In this document: piece after piece, positions 17,355 to 25,937 of the stretch
Numbering within the stretch: position 1 is the first letter of the stretch
Layout: each line of letters opens with the position of its first letter
Origin: Prevotella sp.
GTDB lineage: Bacteria > Bacteroidota > Bacteroidia > Bacteroidales > Bacteroidaceae
NCBI GenBank assembly: GCA_017458005.1
Contig: JAFTGH010000053.1
Coordinates: 1-52,296, forward strand
DNA: 52,296 bases
Direction: 5' to 3'
Translations under genes and position numbers: made by a program
Notes under the pieces: generated by a model
What the model was told of the DNA's origin: nothing
The model's database searches: none
Seen by the model: the letters and a program-made list of their open reading frames with translations, nothing else

Positions 17355-17386
17355 GAAGGATGTGCCACAGCATATCCTTCTTTTTG
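17354..17386 (+). terminator. Intrinsic terminator of the kinase-glycosidase operon
   Basis: The stem AGAAGGAT (17354-17361) pairs with ATCCTTCT (17374-17381) and is followed by a T-rich tail to 17386. It directly follows the kinase stop codon. Confidence 0.75.
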
Positions 17387-17416
17387 TTTCCGAGAAGTTT
17401 AGCAAAAAGATGCTAA

Positions 17417-17749
17417 ACAACTTCACTTTGGAATACGGGCAATGGCTATATCCTGTCGCACTATGCCCGCTATGCCGCAGGTAAGACCCGTGTCAGTGTC
17501 ACCAGCAATCTGGAGGGCATACAGGCTACCGCCTATACCGACGGTCATGGCAACATTTCCTTAGTAGTGATGAATACCACCTCTGAGTTTCAGACGGTCA
17601 CCGTCAAAGGTGTCAAGGCAAGTACGACCAGTGCCGTCTTCACCAATGCCGCCGCCTCATGGCAGGCGACCACCGCCAAGAAGACAGACGAGGGCATCCA
17701 ACTCCTGCTCCCCTCTATGAGCATCACCTCCGTAGCGTTGGCTCAGTAA
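17417..17749 (+). pseudogene. Remnant of a GH30-like glycoside hydrolase (C-terminal end)
   Basis: After a stop codon at 17414-17416 the frame reads through ~110 codons to a TAA at 17747. It contains 'NGYILSHYARYAAGKTRV' and the beta-sandwich pattern 'AYTDGHGNISLVVMNTT', ending with 'SITSVALAQ'. This is the usual C-terminal beta-domain of GH30-type glucanases/xylanases. There is no catalytic barrel and no start codon before 17567, so it is a fragment left after deletion. A GTTTAGC...GCTAAAC inverted repeat (17397-17417) lies at the break. It suggests the operon once continued with an endo-acting enzyme. Confidence 0.65.
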
Positions 17750-17769
17750 TCCAAACACGATACAATCAT

Positions 17770-17800
17770 AAGCGGATGCGTCTTTTTGATGCGTCCGCTT
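17770..17800. terminator. Hairpin between the GH30 remnant and the ATPase gene
   Basis: A 13-bp stem (two G-U wobbles) with a TTTTT loop lies between convergent units. The U-tail is weak on both strands, so it is a probable rather than certain terminator. Confidence 0.5.
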
Positions 17801-17810
17801 ATTCCACAAT

Positions 17811-19151
17811 CTATCTTTCCGTTAGAAAGAATGCCATATAGTGTGGAAGGGTTAACATATTGCCACTATATCCAATATTGTAGTCACCCAACTTGATGGC
17901 ATGGTACACATGATATTTCTCTGGATGTGACAGAATGGTCTTAGTGCTCTTGACATTGCCTGTTGTTGACTTAGCCTCCACCAGTGTGCAGTGTCCTTGA
18001 TAACGGATAACAAAGTCTATCTCAAGTCCTGACTCTTTACGGAAGTAATACAATTTCCGTCTCATCTTTCCAAAAATATCCGCAATCAAATTCTCGAAGA
18101 TAGCGCCCTTATAGCCCAGCAAATTACCTTGTAAGACATCCAACTGAGTGCCCTCCTCCAGCATAGCAATCAACAATCCAGTGTCCGCCATATATACCTT
18201 AAACACCTCATCAATGGCATTACCGTCGAGTGGCAGTTCTGTAATGCTTAGATTCCGGCAACGCTGGATGATACCTGCATCCTCTATCCATTGCAGGCTG
18301 CCTTTGTACTGGGCAGCCTTGCCCCCCTTACGTATGACGGAATACTGGAACTTCTTGTTCTCCTTACTCAATTGTCGGGGGATGGACTCAAAGCATTCAC
18401 GGATATGTGGCTTGTCTTCATCGTTGGCATACTTCATCATGTCATCCTTATATTCGTCAATGATGGTGCGTTGGACATTCAACACACGCCCCATATCGTG
18501 GGTCTCTATAAAGGTATTGACGGCTTCGGGCATACCTCCCACAACAGTATATTGCAACAACAACTGTCGCATGCGTTGGTGAATGGCTTCCTCAATGGGG
18601 GTTTTCTCCACAAAATGTTGTTTAAGACGTTGTATCACCAAGTCGGGAATACCATTTGCCCAAAGATACTCCTCAAAGTCAAGTGGATACATCTCTATGA
18701 TTGTCTCGTAGCCAACAGGTACTGACGTTTTACGAAACTCTTCCCCGTTCTTTCTCCGTTGTCCATACCCCTTTACACCAAGTAGTGAACCTGTGGCTAT
18801 TACATCAAAACGTCCGTCAAGTTTGAAAAACTTCAATGCTGTACGTGCCTCTGGACATTCTTGAATCTCATCAAGTATCAGACATGTATTCCCCGGTTCA
18901 AAAGTCGCTCCGTTTACCATAGCCGTGATGTTTACTATGATATCGTCCACCACTTTTGAATTTTGGAAAGCAAAGGCGAGATCGGGTTGATGCACAAAAT
19001 TCAAACTGACCACATGGGCATAGTTCTCATGGGCGAATTTCTCTACGGAGAATGTTTTCCCACATTGGCGGCATCCCTTCAATACAAGTGGCTTATGATC
19101 AGGGGTTTGCTTCCATTCTTCCAGTACCGTCTCTATCTTTCTTTTTAGCAT
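17811..19151 (-). CDS. AAA+ ATPase with DUF4143 domain
   Basis: About 446 aa from the ATG at 19151. The frame stays open upstream to a TTG at 19232 through a 33-bp repeat, so the start is uncertain. The AAA_14 domain has Walker A 'GCRQCGKTF' and Walker B 'CLILDEIQEC'. The C-terminal DUF4143 half has the PD-(D/E)XK-like segment 'GLEIDFVIRYQGHCTLVEAKS'. Proteins of this family are widespread, frequently multicopy and horizontally mobile. Their function is not established; toxin-antitoxin or defence roles have been suggested for relatives. Confidence 0.88.
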   Translation of the reverse strand: MLKRKIETVLEEWKQTPDHKPLVLKGCRQCGKTFSVEKFAHENYAHVVSLNFVHQPDLAFAFQNSKVVDDIIVNITAMVNGATFEPGNTCLILDEIQECPEARTALKFFKLDGRFDVIATGSLLGVKGYGQRRKNGEEFRKTSVPVGYETIIEMYPLDFEEYLWANGIPDLVIQRLKQHFVEKTPIEEAIHQRMRQLLLQYTVVGGMPEAVNTFIETHDMGRVLNVQRTIIDEYKDDMMKYANDEDKPHIRECFESIPRQLSKENKKFQYSVIRKGGKAAQYKGSLQWIEDAGIIQRCRNLSITELPLDGNAIDEVFKVYMADTGLLIAMLEEGTQLDVLQGNLLGYKGAIFENLIADIFGKMRRKLYYFRKESGLEIDFVIRYQGHCTLVEAKSTTGNVKSTKTILSHPEKYHVYHAIKLGDYNIGYSGNMLTLPHYMAFFLTER

Positions 19152-19159
19152 ATGACTTT

Positions 19160-19240
19160 TTTCCAAGGGACTTTTTGATTGTTTAATCCACTTTTCCAAG
19201 GGACTTTTTGGCTGTTTGATCCACTTTTCCAAAGGACTTT
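19160..19240 (-). repeat. 33-bp direct repeat in the ATPase leader
   Basis: On the minus strand GGAAAAGTGGATyAAACArycAAAAAGTCCCTT occurs as two near-identical 33-bp units, followed by a third partial unit running into the ATPase 5' end. If translated, it gives an 11-residue repeat (KWIKQ-x-KSPLE). It lies between the promoter at 19247 and the ATG at 19151. Confidence 0.75.
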
Positions 19241-19246
19241 CAATGA

Positions 19247-19277
19247 CAAAAGTAGTAAATTCATCTAATATAACAAA
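19247..19277 (-). promoter_or_regulatory. Promoter of the ATPase gene
   Basis: On the minus strand, TTTG (19274-19277), 19 bp, then TACTTTTG (19247-19254): a full consensus. Transcription would begin near 19240, just ahead of the 33-bp repeats. Confidence 0.65.
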
Positions 19278-19420
19278 TAGTTTGGTGAGAACTTTTCTGA
19301 CTATTAAGTATTATTAAGTCAATTTTGCCTCAGGGAAGATAATTTTAAGATTTTCAGAACAGAATCCAAAAATATTATTACTAATTATACCTAATAGTTA
19401 GAGAAGTCAGGGAATTCCGT

Positions 19421-19807
19421 CTACACTTTCTCTTTCTCATATTTCAGATCCTGATAGAGTTCTGGACTGCCTCCTCTGCTCTCTGGCAGGAAGTGGAGGC
19501 GGACACCACGGATATGCTTCCTCGTCTTGAAATCCTTGGGATCATCCACTTTCTCACTCTCTATCTCCAGTTTCATCGTCCCCCATCTATATAATTTCAC
19601 CTTGTCACCTTGTCTGAGGTGATAGTTAATGACATGGGCGAGTCCCATCATAACGGTGATGACGGCACCCTCGTCTATTCCGTCACGCTGGGATACTTCC
19701 TTGATGATCTCGTCGCTGCTGACTGTCCTGTGATGGATGGTCTTCGCCTTATACTTGCCGAAGGTAGGTAGTTTCGGCTTGGTCTCTTTTACTAATTTGT
19801 ATTTCAT
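19421..19807 (-). CDS. HU-like DNA-binding protein (HU-HIG family)
   Basis: A 128-aa protein with a divergent HU/IHF fold. The N-terminal helical part includes 'TVSSDEIIKEVSQRDGIDEG', followed by 'LRQGDKVKLYRWGTMKLEIE', then a conserved 'RGVRLHFLPE' strand. Single HU-like genes of this type regularly accompany VirE-type genes in Bacteroidota. Its start is 20 bp from the left copy of the inverted repeat that encloses the VirE gene. It probably binds or bends DNA in this accessory locus. No terminator was recognised between it and the ATPase. Confidence 0.8.
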   Translation of the reverse strand: MKYKLVKETKPKLPTFGKYKAKTIHHRTVSSDEIIKEVSQRDGIDEGAVITVMMGLAHVINYHLRQGDKVKLYRWGTMKLEIESEKVDDPKDFKTRKHIRGVRLHFLPESRGGSPELYQDLKYEKEKV

Positions 19808-19827
19808 ATATATGAAAATTTTTAAAG

Positions 19828-19912
19828 AAGGTTGTCAGGTTGACAAAACACCGATATCCACAGCGTTTGCAACCTTTTTTGAGGTTGTCAAGGTTGACAT
19901 GAGGTTGTCATG
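19828..19912 (+). repeat. Left copy of 85-bp inverted repeat
   Basis: 82 of 85 bases match the reverse complement of 22183-22267. It contains five octamers GGTTG(T/A)CA at 19830, 19838, 19883, 19892 and 19903, like iterons. It overlaps the last 5 bases of the VirE-type coding region including its stop codon, and ends 20 bp from the HU-like gene. Confidence 0.9.
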
Positions 19913-21980
19913 CCGAGCATGTCACATAATAGCGGCGGCGATCGCTTCCCGTGCCTTTCTCAAAACCGTTCCTGCGTAGATAGTTCCCCAATAGGGTCGC
20001 ATTCGAACGGTTCTCGGCATCCATCCTCAGTCTGCCTAATAGTTCCGTAGGACTTAATAGTAATCTTTCATCCCCAGCCATGGGTTTACGGAAATGGTCC
20101 TCGAAGAGGGAGATGACATTGGGTGTCTCGTAATAGTCAGCGTTCCGCTCGACGATCTGCCGCTCCCGCTCTCCCGTGAAGGCGTATTCCTCCCCGTTCT
20201 CTATCTCCTGCACGATCTGGGCATAGAGTTGGGGATAGTCGATACGGTGGTCGCCCTGCGTGTCCGTGTCTATCACCCCGTCGACCTCCACCACCAGATA
20301 ACGGCGGCTGCCAGTCTCGTCCTTCAGGGGAACGAGGGAGTTGGTGGTGGCACAGAAGGCGGCATGGCGTTGCTGTTGCTCGAAGGTAGTGCTGTATAGT
20401 TTGCGCTCCTTCACGTCGGTGCGCTGGATGAGGTGTTTCAGGAAGGCGGTCTGCGCCTTGCTGATCTGGTCGTACTCGTCAATGTTGATGAGCAGGAAAC
20501 GGCTCAGGGCACGGAGCGCCTCCTTTTTGTTGCTGAAATCGATGCGGTCGATGTAGAACGGCATCAACTCACGGGGCAAGAGCATCCGCATGAAGGTCGA
20601 CTTGCGGGTGCCCTGTCCTCCGACGAGCATCAGCACCATCTGCGCCCCGTACATCGCATCCTGTCCCGCGCGCCACTGGCTGACCATCGACCGCATCCAT
20701 ATCTTGAAGTTCTCCCGCCAGTCGGCGGTCTTCGTGCTCACACGGTCGGCTAACTCGCCCAACCGGTCCCTGCCGTCCCATCGGGGCAGGTTGTCCAGCC
20801 ATTCCTTGACGGGGTCATAACTGCTGATACGCTCGGAGACGAGGATGCGCTCCATGTCGTGCCGCCACACCTTGATACCCTCGCGGATGGCGGCGTTGTT
20901 GATGTCGTTCTGTGCCTCCTGTGTCAACGGCTTCCACCAGAGGCGGAAACGGTATTTCTCCTGATACTCTATCTCGCCCGTCACCTTGTTGCGGCGGAAC
21001 ATATAGCGTCGTCTCAGGAATGCCTCTAATAACTGCTGGTGCATGAGTGTCGGCTCTATGGGGCTCTTCCTGCCTCTCTTCTGCTTCTCATAGGCGGTGT
21101 CGAAGGTCGTGCGCAGCAGCACCTCCTTGTCGAAGCAGTCCAGATACTCCAGCGAGAGTTTGACGGCGAGTTCCTGGTCAATGCCAGCCTTGCGGCACTC
21201 ACAGGCGAGTCGCATCAGGTGATGGTCAAAGTCCATGTAGCGGTCGTAGGCGAGTTCACGGCAGACGAAGTTGAATTTCGTCGCATCCATCTCCCTGCGG
21301 GTGTAGCCCGGCAGCACCTGCGTGTCGAGCGGCACCTCCTCTGCCAGATTGACAACAGGGGCGGTCTGCTCTGTCAGCGGCTCCGTCGGCTGCTCCATCT
21401 CAATCGGTTTCGCCTCTGGGTTCAGATACACCTGTGGATCGTAGGAGATACGGAAATGCTCCGTGCCGTCAGGTCTCACCTCCTCGGGTCTGACACTGGT
21501 GGAGGCAAGGGCATACTCCGCGGCACGCTTGTACGCATACTGCTGAAAAAGAGACACTTGTGAAGACTCCTCTGGCAGGCTCCCGCCCTTCAGCCTGTAA
21601 GGGATCAACACTTTCAGCGACTGACCGCTACTGCCGACAAACGACAGCAGGGTCTGCTCCCAGAGATTCACATGCTTGCGGAGTTGCTCCAGTGCGTCCT
21701 GTCCTTCCCTGATGCGGAACGACAGCAACACAAGTCCAGTGTAACTGTCCTTCTCGCCCTTCGAGGGGAAAATGAGTGGCAGATCCTCGGCGGCGACGGG
21801 ACCAGATGCCTCGCCGACCTCGGTCCTGATACACTCCAGTCCCCTGACGGCATTCACCCTTCGGACATACCTGCCCTCCCTGATCCACTCGGCAAGTGTG
21901 TTAAGCGTTAGACACTTCTCTTTCCGCTCATGGCGGTAGAGGTAACTCATCTTTAGTTTACTGGTTGGAATAAGTAACAT
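19908..21980 (-). CDS. VirE-type primase/ATPase (BT4734-like N-terminal plus VirE domain)
   Basis: A 690-aa protein (or 680 from the Met at 21950). The N-terminal ~190 residues resemble the BT4734/VirE_N domain, with 'GLVLLSFRIREGQDALEQL'. A helical middle segment follows. The VirE/DUF5906-like P-loop ATPase occupies ~390-620: 'EWLDNLPRWDGRDRL', the P-loop 'VGGQGTRKSTFM', Walker B 'FLLINIDEYDQI', and the sensor-like 'AAFCATTNSLVPLKDETGSRRYLVVEVD'. The final ~70 residues look like a small winged helix. In the P-loop the glycine before Lys is Arg. Proteins of this kind are replication or primase-like enzymes of mobile elements. The gene is visibly GC-richer than its AT-rich flanks and is enclosed by an inverted repeat, which suggests transfer. 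Confidence 0.8.
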   Translation of the reverse strand: MLLIPTSKLKMSYLYRHERKEKCLTLNTLAEWIREGRYVRRVNAVRGLECIRTEVGEASGPVAAEDLPLIFPSKGEKDSYTGLVLLSFRIREGQDALEQLRKHVNLWEQTLLSFVGSSGQSLKVLIPYRLKGGSLPEESSQVSLFQQYAYKRAAEYALASTSVRPEEVRPDGTEHFRISYDPQVYLNPEAKPIEMEQPTEPLTEQTAPVVNLAEEVPLDTQVLPGYTRREMDATKFNFVCRELAYDRYMDFDHHLMRLACECRKAGIDQELAVKLSLEYLDCFDKEVLLRTTFDTAYEKQKRGRKSPIEPTLMHQQLLEAFLRRRYMFRRNKVTGEIEYQEKYRFRLWWKPLTQEAQNDINNAAIREGIKVWRHDMERILVSERISSYDPVKEWLDNLPRWDGRDRLGELADRVSTKTADWRENFKIWMRSMVSQWRAGQDAMYGAQMVLMLVGGQGTRKSTFMRMLLPRELMPFYIDRIDFSNKKEALRALSRFLLINIDEYDQISKAQTAFLKHLIQRTDVKERKLYSTTFEQQQRHAAFCATTNSLVPLKDETGSRRYLVVEVDGVIDTDTQGDHRIDYPQLYAQIVQEIENGEEYAFTGERERQIVERNADYYETPNVISLFEDHFRKPMAGDERLLLSPTELLGRLRMDAENRSNATLLGNYLRRNGFEKGTGSDRRRYYVTCSA

Positions 21981-22053
21981 AATAGTTTGTTAGTTGGGTT
22001 GATACTAAACTTGTCCCTAATATTCCTGCAAATATCATGCCAACTTTTTGTCA

Positions 22054-22069
22054 AATTCTCTAGAGAATT
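22054..22069. promoter_or_regulatory. 16-bp perfect palindrome, copy 1
   Basis: AATTCTCTAGAGAATT, 74 bp upstream of the VirE-type start. An identical core recurs at 22119-22134. Probable protein-binding site. Confidence 0.6.
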
Positions 22070-22080
22070 GACCCGAAAGG

Positions 22081-22107
22081 AGGCACTTTCCACCCCGTTA
22101 GGTGCCT
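22081..22107. repeat. AGGCAC/GTGCCT inverted repeat between the two palindromes
   Basis: AGGCAC (22081-22086) and GTGCCT (22102-22107) with a 15-nt spacer form a central hairpin flanked by the two palindromes. Confidence 0.55.
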
Positions 22108-22117
22108 ACAAACGCTC

Positions 22118-22135
22118 CAATTCTCTAGAGAATTG
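22118..22135. promoter_or_regulatory. 18-bp perfect palindrome, copy 2
   Basis: CAATTCTCTAGAGAATTG. Its core is identical to copy 1, 65 bp away. It may be an operator pair or part of an origin. Confidence 0.6.
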
Positions 22136-22182
22136 AGCCACTACCTAGCCACATCCACTTGGTTCCCTTATGGGTACTCCAT

Positions 22183-22267
22183 CATGTCAACCTTATGTCA
22201 ACCTTGACAACCTCAAAAAAGGTTGCAAACGCTGTGGCTATCGGTGTTTTGTCAACCTGACAACCTT
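22183..22267 (-). repeat. Right copy of 85-bp inverted repeat
   Basis: Reverse complement of 19828-19912 with three mismatches. It carries the iteron octamer near 22185, 22196, 22205, 22250 and 22258 (the outermost copies are all conserved). It lies ~200 bp upstream of the VirE-type gene. Confidence 0.9.
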
Positions 22268-22360
22268 TTTTGAAAAATCTTCTGTTTATCATTTTATTTA
22301 TGCTGATGAGGCTGCAGTAAAAAATCTTCCTTCTTTCTTTTAGTTTTCAAAAATAATTAC

Positions 22361-22368
22361 TATTTTTG
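22361..22368 (+). promoter_or_regulatory. -7 promoter box of a short transcript
   Basis: TATTTTTG matches the consensus; the -33 element is weak. It is followed by a 20-codon ORF and a terminator. Confidence 0.5.
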
Positions 22369-22393
22369 CATTCAAAACCTATTAACCAAGAAC

Positions 22394-22456
22394 ATGAAAC
22401 TACTACAAAGACTTCAAACGATGCTGTTGACCGCTCTGCTAAACAAAGAAGCCTGA
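22394..22456 (+). CDS. Candidate 20-residue small protein
   Basis: ATG at 22394 to TGA at 22454-22456 encodes a 20-residue amphipathic peptide (MKLLQRLQTM, then LLTALLNKEA). It has a promoter box 26 bp upstream and ends inside an intrinsic terminator stem, so it would be a ~100-nt self-contained transcript. There is no similarity I recognise. It could equally be a noncoding RNA or a leader. Confidence 0.35.
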   Translation: MKLLQRLQTMLLTALLNKEA

Positions 22457-22477
22457 GCAAATCGCCCAGGCTTCTTT
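22445..22477. terminator. Bidirectional intrinsic terminator
   Basis: An 11-bp perfect stem AAAGAAGCCTG/CAGGCTTCTTT with an 11-nt loop. It ends the symporter operon on the minus strand (T-rich CTTCTTTGTTT) and the short plus-strand transcript. Confidence 0.85.
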
Positions 22478-22483
22478 ATAAAG

Positions 22484-24013
22484 TTATTCGTAGCACTTGA
22501 AGATCTTGTCGACCTTCTCACGGTTCATCTTTGGCGTGAGCAGACTGACAATCCATACCACAGGGAAACTGCCTACCATGGCTATGGCTCCACAGTTGAT
22601 GGGGTTAGCGATGGCATTACCAGAGAGCATGTTCACCACGATGAGTCCTACGCCCCAGATGTAACTTGCCCAAACGGCGGCAGGGGTGACCCCTTTCCAA
22701 TAGAGTCCCAACAGGAACGGAGCGAGGAAGGCACCAGCCAGCGCACCCCATGAGATACCCATGAGTTGGGCGATGAACGTGGGGGGATTGAGGGCTATCA
22801 GCAGGGAGATGGCGATGAAGAACACAATCAGCACACGCATCACCACTACCTTGCGACGCTCCACCTTCTCGGCAACCTCGTCGTCAATCACGCTGTCTAC
22901 AACCTCACCGTCCTCAGACTTCTTGTCACGATAGATCAGGTCGAGGGTCATCGTCGAACTGGAGGTCAGCACTAGTCCTGCGAGTGTCGACATCGAGGCG
23001 GCAAGGACGAGCAGCACGACGAGTCCGATGATGGCGTCGTTGAGGGTGACGAGCATCGAGGGCACAATGCTGTCGAAGGCAATCTTGCCGTCCACATAGA
23101 TAGCAGGGCTGTCGAACAGACGACCGAAGCCGCCGAGGAAATAGCAGCCACCAGCCACGAGGAGAGCGAAGATGGTAGAGATGACGGTACCACGACGGAC
23201 AGCCGCCTCGTCGGTGATACTATAGAACTTGCCCACCATCTGAGGCAGTCCCCAGGTACCTAAAGAGGTCAGGATGACGACACCCAACAGGTTCCAGGGG
23301 TCAGGACCGAAGAGGGTGGCGAACAACCCGCTTCCAGTCTCCGTGCTTCCATCGGCAGGCAGTGCGGCGAGTTTGTCGACAGCGGCAGTCAGTCCGCCCT
23401 GGCTGTTGATGACGGCAGTCACTACGAGGACGATACCGAAGATCATGATACAGCCTTGGATGAAGTCGTTGATGGCGGTAGCCTTATAGCCTCCGAGGAT
23501 GACATAGACGGCGGTGAGTACCGCCATCGTGATGGCACAATAGATATAAGGGATGCCGAAGCCCATCTCGAAGAGGGTGGAGATGCCCTTATAGACACCA
23601 GCGGTGTAGGGTATCAGGAACACGAAGGCGATGATAGAGGCGATGACACGCAGCCCCTCGCTGTCGTAGCGGATGCCGAAGAAGTCGGGCATGGTGCGTG
23701 ATCCGATAAACTGCGTCATGATCTTTGTGCGTCTTCCAAGGATGATCCATGCGAAGAGGGAGCCGATAATGGCATTGCCAATACCTATCCAAGTGGCGGA
23801 GAGTCCGTATTTCCATCCGAACTGTCCCGCATAGCCGATGAAGACCACGGCGGAGAAATAACTGGTACCATAAGCGAAGGCGGTGAGCCACGGTCCAACG
23901 GCACGTCCTCCAAGGACGAAGCCGTCGACACTACTTGCTTGTTTGCGTGAATAGATTCCTACACCCACCATGACCAGTAGGAAGAGAATCGTTAGGCTAA
24001 TTCTTAAAATCAT
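22484..24013 (-). CDS. Sodium:solute symporter (SSS family)
   Basis: A 509-aa integral membrane protein with about 13 hydrophobic helices. Typical SSS features are the early 'GGRAVGPWLTAFAYGTSYFSAV' region (helix 2) and 'AASMSTLAGLVLTSSSTMTLDLI' in helix 8, with Ser/Thr positions that bind Na+. It probably imports a small solute such as an amino acid or organic acid; the substrate is not deducible. It is the last gene of an operon with the MBL hydrolase and the porin, separated from the porin by a 45-bp gap that contains palindromic TCGATATA motifs. Confidence 0.92.
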   Translation of the reverse strand: MILRISLTILFLLVMVGVGIYSRKQASSVDGFVLGGRAVGPWLTAFAYGTSYFSAVVFIGYAGQFGWKYGLSATWIGIGNAIIGSLFAWIILGRRTKIMTQFIGSRTMPDFFGIRYDSEGLRVIASIIAFVFLIPYTAGVYKGISTLFEMGFGIPYIYCAITMAVLTAVYVILGGYKATAINDFIQGCIMIFGIVLVVTAVINSQGGLTAAVDKLAALPADGSTETGSGLFATLFGPDPWNLLGVVILTSLGTWGLPQMVGKFYSITDEAAVRRGTVISTIFALLVAGGCYFLGGFGRLFDSPAIYVDGKIAFDSIVPSMLVTLNDAIIGLVVLLVLAASMSTLAGLVLTSSSTMTLDLIYRDKKSEDGEVVDSVIDDEVAEKVERRKVVVMRVLIVFFIAISLLIALNPPTFIAQLMGISWGALAGAFLAPFLLGLYWKGVTPAAVWASYIWGVGLIVVNMLSGNAIANPINCGAIAMVGSFPVVWIVSLLTPKMNREKVDKIFKCYE

Positions 24014-24026
24014 AATTAATCTTTTT

Positions 24027-24053
24027 TCGATATATCGATAGGACGATATGTCG
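24027..24053. repeat. TCGATATA palindromic motifs, symporter-porin gap
   Basis: TCGATATATCGATA (24027-24040) and CGATATGTCG (24044-24053). The same motif recurs in the next gap of this operon. Confidence 0.6.
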
Positions 24054-24058
24054 ACTTG

Positions 24059-25144
24059 TTATTTTCTTTTGGAATAATCAAAGCGTATCTGCATCTGTGC
24101 CATGATGGCATTGCTGGCGCCATGGGTGAAGACACCATTGGCGAGATAGGCGCTCTTATAGACATACTGCACCTGGAAACGGCACTTGCGGAAGAACCAG
24201 TATTGCAGTCCGGCAATCACCTTGTGCTGGTCCATGCCGAGGGAGGTGTTGAAATTGAAGAAATCGTAGGAGCCTACGAACTCCAGACCTTTATACAAGG
24301 GGATGGCGCCAGTGACATAGGCACCACGGCTGGTGGTGTTCTTGTCCTTACCTTCTATATATTCCCCGTGTACATTGAAGTCTTTGGATTTATAGTCGAA
24401 GCCCACCGTCCAGCGGTTACGCTTATAGTTGTCACCTGCTTCAATGTCAGGATTATAGGGTGAGTTGGCGATGGCATGTCCTCGTCCCAACTGTCCTGTG
24501 GCTACGAGGTTGAGTCCTTTCACGGGGCGATACTCCAGTCGTCCGATGAAGTCCTTCTCCTTGTTGCCGTCTTTCTTGTTGATACCCTGTCCGTTCATCA
24601 CCTGTGCCTCGTAGCGGAACTTGCCGTCGTTAGTCTCACCAAAGATGGCGAGTCCGAGGTCACGACCGTATTGCACCCCCATCAGCGGGTCACTGCCACA
24701 GCCTGTCAGGTAAGTCACACCTTCTGAGTAGACATCGATAGCCTCCATAGAGGTAGGGGAAAGGGGATTCTCAAGAGATACGCCGTTCTTAAACTGTCCA
24801 AGGCGAACGGTCAAGGCCTTGTTGTTGGTAAAGCGATAGTCGGTATAAAACTCTTGTACGACACTTGAGAAGTCGTGCATGAACAGGAACGACCATCTGT
24901 CTGTGATTCGGGCGTTAGCCCAGAAGAGAACACGCTTGAGTTCAAAGGTTCCTTTGTCTTCTGCGTCTTGGTGTGTGTAGTTGAAGCCTCCTTGTGCGTA
25001 ACCATGCAACTCGATGCGGTCGGATACGTCCTTCAACCAGTCGATTGCTTCTTTCTTTTCACTCGATTGCCCCATAGCGGCAGTACTGCTGAAGGCGGCA
25101 AGCGCAACGGCAAGCAACGCCTCCTTGAAAAATTGTTTTCTCAT
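24059..25144 (-). CDS. Outer-membrane porin (OprO/OprP-like)
   Basis: A 361-aa protein with a signal peptide (cleavage near AMG/QS), then alternating amphipathic beta strands. It ends in a strand 'AIMAQMQIRFDYSKRK'. It contains 'DRIELHGYAQGGFNYTH' and 'SFLFMHDFSSVVQEFYTDYRF', segments typical of the phosphate-selective porin O/P family in Bacteroidota. It would form an outer-membrane channel that supplies the solute taken up by the co-transcribed symporter (inference). Confidence 0.85.
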   Translation of the reverse strand: MRKQFFKEALLAVALAAFSSTAAMGQSSEKKEAIDWLKDVSDRIELHGYAQGGFNYTHQDAEDKGTFELKRVLFWANARITDRWSFLFMHDFSSVVQEFYTDYRFTNNKALTVRLGQFKNGVSLENPLSPTSMEAIDVYSEGVTYLTGCGSDPLMGVQYGRDLGLAIFGETNDGKFRYEAQVMNGQGINKKDGNKEKDFIGRLEYRPVKGLNLVATGQLGRGHAIANSPYNPDIEAGDNYKRNRWTVGFDYKSKDFNVHGEYIEGKDKNTTSRGAYVTGAIPLYKGLEFVGSYDFFNFNTSLGMDQHKVIAGLQYWFFRKCRFQVQYVYKSAYLANGVFTHGASNAIMAQMQIRFDYSKRK

Positions 25145-25174
25145 CTTGATTTAATTTTTATATTGGTTTTGGAA

Positions 25175-25202
25175 TCGATATCTCGATATATCGATATATC
25201 GA
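25175..25202. repeat. 8-bp tandem palindromic repeat in the porin-hydrolase gap
   Basis: TCGATATC-TCGATATA-TCGATATA-TCGA, about 3.5 units, directly after the hydrolase stop codon region. As RNA it can form UCGAUAUAUCGA hairpins. Confidence 0.7.
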
Positions 25203-25205
25203 GAA

Positions 25206-25937
25206 CTATTTATATTTGCGGATTCTCACGTCGATGCCACTGCCAGCGAGCAACATCGTCACCTTGCGGATAGGTGTGTCGCTATAGTGGTAGGGGAACA
25301 GCACTTTCGGCTTGATGGTCTTTGCCGCCCTCACCAGTTGCTCTGGTGTCATGGTGTAAGGCTGGTTGCAAGGCAGGAAGGCGATGTCGATATCCTGCAG
25401 GTCAGCCATCTCAGGAATGTCCTCGGTATCACCAGCGACATAGATGCGCAGGTTCTCAATCGTCAGCACATAGCCGTTGTCACGTCCCTTGGGGTGGAAC
25501 TTCAGGTTGGCGGGGGTGGTGTTGTAGGCAGGAACTGCCTCCACGGTGATATTGTCACAAACCTCAGCCTTATCGCCATTCGCCATTACATAACCACTTC
25601 CCCATTGTGTATAGACATTATGGTTGGTGTAGATGACCGTATAGTTGCGGCGCAGTTCTGTCAGTGCCATCGAGTCGAAGTGGTCGTGGTGCTCGTGAGT
25701 GACGAAGATATAGTCCGCCTTGGGCCATGTGGTGAAGTCGGTATGTGGCTCCAGATTGATGACGGGGTCGAAATAGATCGTCTTCCCATTGTACTCCATC
25801 ATGATGCTGGCATGCTTGATGCAGGTGATCTTCACGGTCTTGCCGGATGCCGTCTGAAACACATCCGTCTCTCCCTGTTGCGCCATGCATCCAAGAGCAA
25901 GGCAAAGGGTCAGTAACATTACACTTAGTCTTCTCAT
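25206..25937 (-). CDS. Exported metallo-beta-lactamase-fold hydrolase (UlaG-like)
   Basis: A 243-aa protein with an N-terminal signal (cleavage near CMA/QQ; a lipoprotein is less likely). The metal motif HxHxDH is 'THEHHDHFDS', and further ligands are likely in 'VAGDTEDIPEM' and 'FPYHYSD'. The order matches UlaG/YtkL-type hydrolases, which act on lactones or phosphoesters. It is the first gene of the operon with a porin and a symporter, so it probably processes the same solute in the periplasm. A -7 box TAATTTTG lies at 25966-25973 on the minus strand. Confidence 0.87.
   Translation of the reverse strand: MRRLSVMLLTLCLALGCMAQQGETDVFQTASGKTVKITCIKHASIMMEYNGKTIYFDPVINLEPHTDFTTWPKADYIFVTHEHHDHFDSMALTELRRNYTVIYTNHNVYTQWGSGYVMANGDKAEVCDNITVEAVPAYNTTPANLKFHPKGRDNGYVLTIENLRIYVAGDTEDIPEMADLQDIDIAFLPCNQPYTMTPEQLVRAAKTIKPKVLFPYHYSDTPIRKVTMLLAGSGIDVRIRKYK

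Follow-up and report, generated by a model that had tools for sequence, protein, structure and literature searches.

Within a 52,296-nt stretch of a Prevotella sp. genome (GenBank assembly GCA_017458005.1, contig JAFTGH010000053.1, positions 1 to 52,296; hereafter the window), a single VirE-type gene lies between two long inverted arms that carry iterons. Arms of this kind accompany the gene at homologous loci, recur dispersed through genomes in gene-bearing and gene-less forms, and bear element-specific iterons that covary with the C-terminal part of the encoded protein. The best overall explanation, to which we give slightly better than even credence, is that a VapE-type helicase gene and its cognate iteron arms are a selfish element in minimal form, which has spread through the Prevotellaceae.

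At the window locus, positions 19828–19912 and 22183–22267 form inverted repeats in which 82 of 85 bases agree, and contain five GGTTG(T/A)CA octamers each (starting at 19830, 19838, 19883, 19892 and 19903 in the left arm, and at 22185, 22196, 22205, 22250 and 22258 in the right), together holding 10 of the 21 such octamers in the window. Under a looser limit the arms reach 107 nt (19806–19912 and 22183–22289, 90% identity). The layout within an arm is two direct octamers, then a core and inverted half-site, then three direct octamers. The only gene between the arms has a GC content of 0.574, against 0.494 for the whole window, and its stop codon (19908–19910) falls inside the left arm. An earlier note on this DNA had described 85-bp inverted ends with five octamers each around one GC-rich VirE-type gene, a left repeat overlapping the stop codon and an HU-like gene 20 bp outside it, all of which was borne out. 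The arms and gene comprise the following features:

19828–19912, + strand: left arm, read outside to inside on +; outward limit 19806 at 90% identity
19830–19845, + strand: left arm, outer direct iteron pair (GGTTGTCA, GGTTGACA)
19851–19865, + strand: left arm core (CCGAT...), by its sequence the equivalent of the CCGATGTACAAAGGG-type core in other arms
19869–19874, + strand: left arm inverted half-site GCAACC, read from the sequence, followed by a T run
19883–19910, + strand: left arm, three inner direct iterons, the last overlapping the gene stop codon
19908–21980, − strand: VirE-type gene, 690 aa, with a PF08800 BT4734-like N domain and a PF05272 VapE-like AAA+ domain
19911–20129, − strand: codons for residues 618–690, the C-terminal part and proposed iteron reader, whose divergence tracks the iterons
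22183–22267, − strand: right arm, read outside to inside on −; outward limit 22289 at 90% identity
22185–22212, − strand: right arm, three inner direct iterons
22250–22265, − strand: right arm, outer direct iteron pair

Just outside the right arm (22393–22480), the sequence also contains a small open reading frame (ORF) of about 20 codons and then a terminator-like hairpin.

A scan of a one-genome-per-species collection, taking the best 80 of 414 relatives, yielded 78 loci, of which 47 with at least 54% identity form the clade considered here, 44 of them with both flanks. When 700 bp upstream was compared with 500 bp downstream (E<1e-4), inverted arms were detected at 43 of these 44 loci, and the same test found an inverted repeat at 0 of 29 rubrerythrin control loci; the association of arms with the gene is therefore beyond chance. 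The sole exception, L116, is apparently the same locus as L064, where the left arm and a right stub remain. The earlier note had reasoned that absence of the repeat from every other VirE locus would mark it as a one-off duplication, whereas nearly all close homologues proved to be armed. The 31 more distant loci, 26 with both flanks, included 10 with an inverted repeat. By eye, the arms of P. gordonii and Bacteroides sp. GM023 are laid out in the same way but carry iterons of unrelated sequence, and each of these genomes also has a gene-less inverted pair; others of the distant loci are not clear. Separately, the single-contig genome G024 carries five distant VirE paralogues (L086–L090), four of them about 94–96% identical over up to 4.4 kb, which adjoin a gene resembling, by eye, a TOPRIM/DnaB-type primase-helicase.

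Arm sequences also recur away from the gene. The window's own genome contains 11 repeat matches, including the two window arms and two short matches (64 and 29 bp), and on contig C45 a second inverted pair surrounds about 540 bp without a gene, with leader palindromes (described below) beside one arm. An IS982-like transposase remnant, named by eye, adjoins this gene-less pair (L018, 3480–4062), and CTCCTCACGG-containing repeats stand directly at the inner end of several solo arms (L264, L266 and solos on C48, C65 and C17). In a genus survey of 200 genomes, with close homologues defined by at least 56% identity, the repeat was found at the DNA level in 12 genomes and a close gene homologue in 12, both being present in nine, the repeat alone in three (G022, G149 and G155) and the gene alone in three; the Fisher p value for this co-occurrence, 4e-11, overstates the evidence, as the genomes are related. 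Mismatches between repeat and gene are partly due to incomplete genomes or other iterons. In genome G108, scoring of 40 of 56 candidates confirmed every one, so that it holds at least 40 copies; at 30 inspected loci, 28 copies were intergenic, though the same crude measure puts these loci at 71% ORF, and flanking gene starts and ends point at the copies about equally. The G108 copies have the outer end and arm in common, many also with a leader palindrome. To the earlier note's question whether the repeat always flanks VirE-type genes the answer is no: most copies found in the window's own genome and in G108 are solos.

Similar arms bound shorter genes. Among 200 genomes, 72 contained the core pattern CCGATNNACANAGGG, with 191 matches in all; the reversed pattern, used as control, gave 18 (sums made by hand). 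Among the matches listed, five arm pairs about 1.5 kb apart were chosen (two in G035 and one each in G166, G022 and G055, with the G022 left arm cut by a contig end), and each encloses one main ORF of 399–414 residues between arms of 117–128 bp. Three of the five proteins were scanned and matched VapE and DUF3874, with no PF08800; because these short VapE-type proteins have arms, the primase-like domain is unnecessary for arm association. Further chosen pairs are gene-less, four with arm pairing (L423–L425 and L428) and two, from G045, with no pairing detected. Additional VapE-type genes lie at contig ends in the window's own genome, two with an arm-like stretch carrying the core (by eye). Short VapE-type genes are cut at five of its contig ends (L023–L027, on C60, C50, C16, C4 and C24), which suggests similar copies that break the assembly.

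Forty left arms were aligned (the window's and 39 of the 43, leaving out L108, L109, L128 and L134) and, a few odd rows aside, present two iterons, a core near CCGATGTACAAAGGG, an inverted half-site, a T-rich stretch and more iterons. A locus's own right arm was the best partner of its left arm in 31 of 43 cases, and in the other 12 another locus's arm scored equal or higher. Half-site and iterons change together (32 double changes, where shuffles gave 12.3; 0/500), but because an alternative pairing covaries as well (28 against 13.0), a hairpin is not proven. Iterons change fast between species, and in five same-genome pairs of clade genes, whose proteins are 53–80% identical, the arms differ (72–76% identity in three and hardly alignable in two; random pairs were not compared). 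Iteron distance correlates with all parts of the protein (r 0.40–0.56); with the other parts held constant (500 permutations), the partial correlation is 0.41 for the C-terminal part (p 0.002), 0.14 for the N domain (p 0.06), 0.16 for the middle (p 0.02) and −0.16 for the VapE domain (p 0.97). In these sequence comparisons iteron specificity follows the C-terminal part, for which the predicted model shows helices and strands at a local confidence score (pLDDT) of about 75–90.

Walker A (GxGxxKST), Walker B (IDE) and arginine (GxRR) motifs are invariant across 17 aligned proteins, as expected of a VapE-like AAA+ ATPase. Active archaeo-eukaryotic primases carry hhhDhD/E at motif I and sxH at motif II, according to the available portion of PMC5862659. 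The clade proteins have neither and in this differ from the BT4734-like archaeo-eukaryotic primase family: at motif I (the LLSF position) 43 of the 45 clade sequences covering it lack an acidic residue and two have a single E, and at motif II a K occupies the expected H position (by eye), while the motif III D is retained. The primase-like N domain is probably inactive. The earlier suggestion that the element is served by its primase is therefore doubtful, given also the shorter VapE-type gene that has the same arms and no such domain. Pfam, NCBIfam, PHROG and PADLOC scans of the protein returned solely VapE/primase-type matches and no transposase model, with which a novel catalytic role would be compatible.

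The region between the gene and the right arm, and the gene beyond the left arm, contain further recurrent features:

21981–22182: leader, from gene start to right arm
22054–22069: leader palindrome AATTCTCTAGAGAATT, copy 1
22119–22134: leader palindrome, copy 2
19421–19807, − strand: HU-HIG family gene (PF18291), the companion gene, starting 20 bp outside the 85-bp left arm

Thirty of 43 leaders contain a ATTCTCNNGAGAAT palindrome pair, spaced 43 or 64–65 bp apart and situated between arm and gene; four others hold a single copy and nine hold none. In 212,625 bp outside the leaders the 12-bp form is present once. The pair may be an operator. Of the 44 clade loci that extend 700 bp downstream (a set not quite identical to the 44 of the arm test), 39 have an HU gene after the VirE-type gene; the earlier note had treated this gene as lying outside. 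In the window it adjoins an AAA_14/DUF4143 ATPase gene (17811–19232) that matches the PADLOC candidate defence model PDC-S01 (E 1e-151). A 7.85-kb block (17357–25206) with the ATPase, HU, VirE, symporter and porin genes is missing from between its neighbouring genes in G303, the nearest relative found, where the two block edges adjoin.

If the selfish-element explanation is right, the gene product would be a VapE-type, SaPI-Rep-like AAA+ initiator helicase whose primase-like N domain is probably inactive, and its cognate iteron sites would be the arms, which resemble small replication origins in build and whose iterons the C-terminal domain would read. The protein would bind and melt the arms as origins, the DNA that they bound would be over-replicated, and either host factors or a trans-acting enzyme would insert the copies. 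The unit that spread would consist of the gene, its arms and, in most cases, the companion HU gene, and would leave behind gene-less inverted pairs and single arms. Such an element would stand to the dispersed repeats as an insertion sequence (IS) does to miniature inverted-repeat transposable elements (MITEs), or a RAYT to REPINs, with a helicase replacing the transposase. The earlier note had offered mobile-element ends and an origin pair as alternatives, and the arms at nearly all close homologues, the gene-less recurrence and the SaPI-type iteron-origin layout support the two jointly.

The genomic neighbourhoods are varied. Flanking ORFs at 43 loci fell into 39 groups for 40 left flanks and 34 groups for 38 right flanks, and no two loci had flanks on both sides in common; for the 29 rubrerythrin loci the count was 18 groups upstream and 4 downstream, but these loci were drawn from the closest species, which makes the contrast only indicative. 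Among 37 sequences past the HU stop codon, similarity was found in just nine pairs, five of them short. In G303, a DNA-level search (40 of 55 candidates scored) gave no match to the gene; its HU locus (96% aa) keeps the leader palindromes, with the gene gone and the arms reduced to a remnant, and its other repeat copies are mostly partial. One truncated solo is common to this genome and the window's own, by eye.

Several observations weigh against a self-spreading, arm-to-arm element. Rubrerythrin upstream flanks vary too, the HU gene co-travels despite its position outside the arms, and the unit seems to end after the HU stop codon, an end that an arm-to-arm unit leaves unexplained. The two G035 copies are alike to approximately the outer end of the right arm, but to about 100 bp past the left arm. 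A close gene is missing from three of the 12 genomes with the repeat, and a DNA-level repeat from three of the 12 with the gene; one solo is common to two species, so some copies are old. No target duplication was seen by eye at seven arm pairs, nor a clean empty site, and no transposase or nuclease was found.

The strongest alternative, a serious contender that we nevertheless consider unlikely, takes the arms as operators or origins belonging to a replication module that descends from integrated plasmids or satellites and does not itself move, its arms and remnants having been scattered by larger elements and genome rearrangement. VapE-type genes are typical of replicating mobile elements (available portions of PMC5862659 and PMC7581432), the protein's PHROG matches are phage helicases and primases, its distant relatives, all below 60% identity, lie on plasmids and phages, and HU and the gene stand together in many neighbourhoods. 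Passive remnants, however, would predict neither the abundance of similar, mostly intergenic copies in G108 nor gene-less inverted pairs in several genera, and no integrase or packaging gene was found among the ORFs listed near the window gene or inside the arms, the wider loci not having been systematically checked. It is improbable that the arms are instead useful to the host, with selection keeping the dispersed repeats as places where helicase and HU serve chromosome structure, replication restart or gene control. Copies favour neither the starts nor the ends of genes, iterons turn over quickly from one species to the next, and in the nearest relative the gene is gone from the HU locus and most repeats are partial, even if the frequent HU companion, the mostly intergenic solos, the solo retained in two species and the conserved palindrome pair would all suit such a role. 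We give very little weight to the possibility that an unrelated transposase moves the repeats as MITEs and that a single capture placed the gene between two copies: an IS982-like remnant (by eye) and IS5/MITE239-like end sequences, compared by eye with the available part of PMC4596501, adjoin two copies, but the iterons covary with the C-terminal part of the gene, and with two differently built VapE-type genes inside arms of one layout, capture would need to recur. A one-off duplication or invertible segment, which the high identity of the two window arms could suggest, is scarcely credible, the former being already contradicted by arms of other sequence around the homologues and by the dispersed copies, and the latter, raised in the earlier note, drawing no support from a sequence with no recombinase inside and many solo arms elsewhere.

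Gut Bacteroidota commonly carry VirE/VapE-type genes, whose usual annotation is virulence or primase gene; those of this clade are accompanied by cognate arms specific to each element, by dispersed copies that lack the gene and by a testable protein–DNA code in the last 73 residues. Were mobility real, the question would be whether a helicase with its own origins can spread without a transposase, and the element would account for one class of intergenic repeats in Prevotellaceae. Tentatively, and with more doubt than conviction, we suggest a new class of mobile DNA, in which a lone VapE-type helicase gene between inverted, origin-like arms with iterons would spread by helicase-initiated replication rather than by a transposase and seed gene-less copies. 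Divergence of the iterons together with the C-terminal domain would keep co-resident elements from acting on one another, as with plasmid incompatibility groups.

Features of this arrangement are found in several known systems. The high-copy intergenic repeat PINSR of Prevotella intermedia (188 bp, 177–184 copies), compared by description only, is presented in the available part of PMC4755523 without terminal inverted repeats and without a partner gene, unlike the arms. Insertion sequences with MITEs likewise combine a gene between inverted arms with gene-less arm pairs, although here there is no recognised transposase and no target duplication was seen. REPIN/RAYT systems, as set out in the accessible text of PMC3116915, have a single-copy gene flanked by repeats plus dispersed inverted pairs and singlets, and the window gene is similarly flanked by repeats that recur elsewhere as inverted pairs; RAYT is a Y1 (HUH) transposase, whereas the gene here matches VapE and PF08800, and the arms are about 85–130 bp with iterons, the G108 copies being mostly solos. 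In SaPI/PICI satellites a Rep-type AAA+ helicase has iterons directly downstream, as here, and the C-terminal domains of SaPI Rep and SCC Cch2 bind iterons adjoining the gene (available portion of PMC7581432). From the SaPI Rep helicase and its iteron origin (7pds, 7ola; SCC Cch2) the window element differs in having two inverted arms, one per side, and dispersed and gene-less copies, and in standing alone with HU outside any multi-gene island. By analogy, the element would work most like a SaPI Rep/origin module, and its copies are arranged like REPIN/RAYT or IS/MITE populations as described in the available text of PMC3116915 and PMC4596501.
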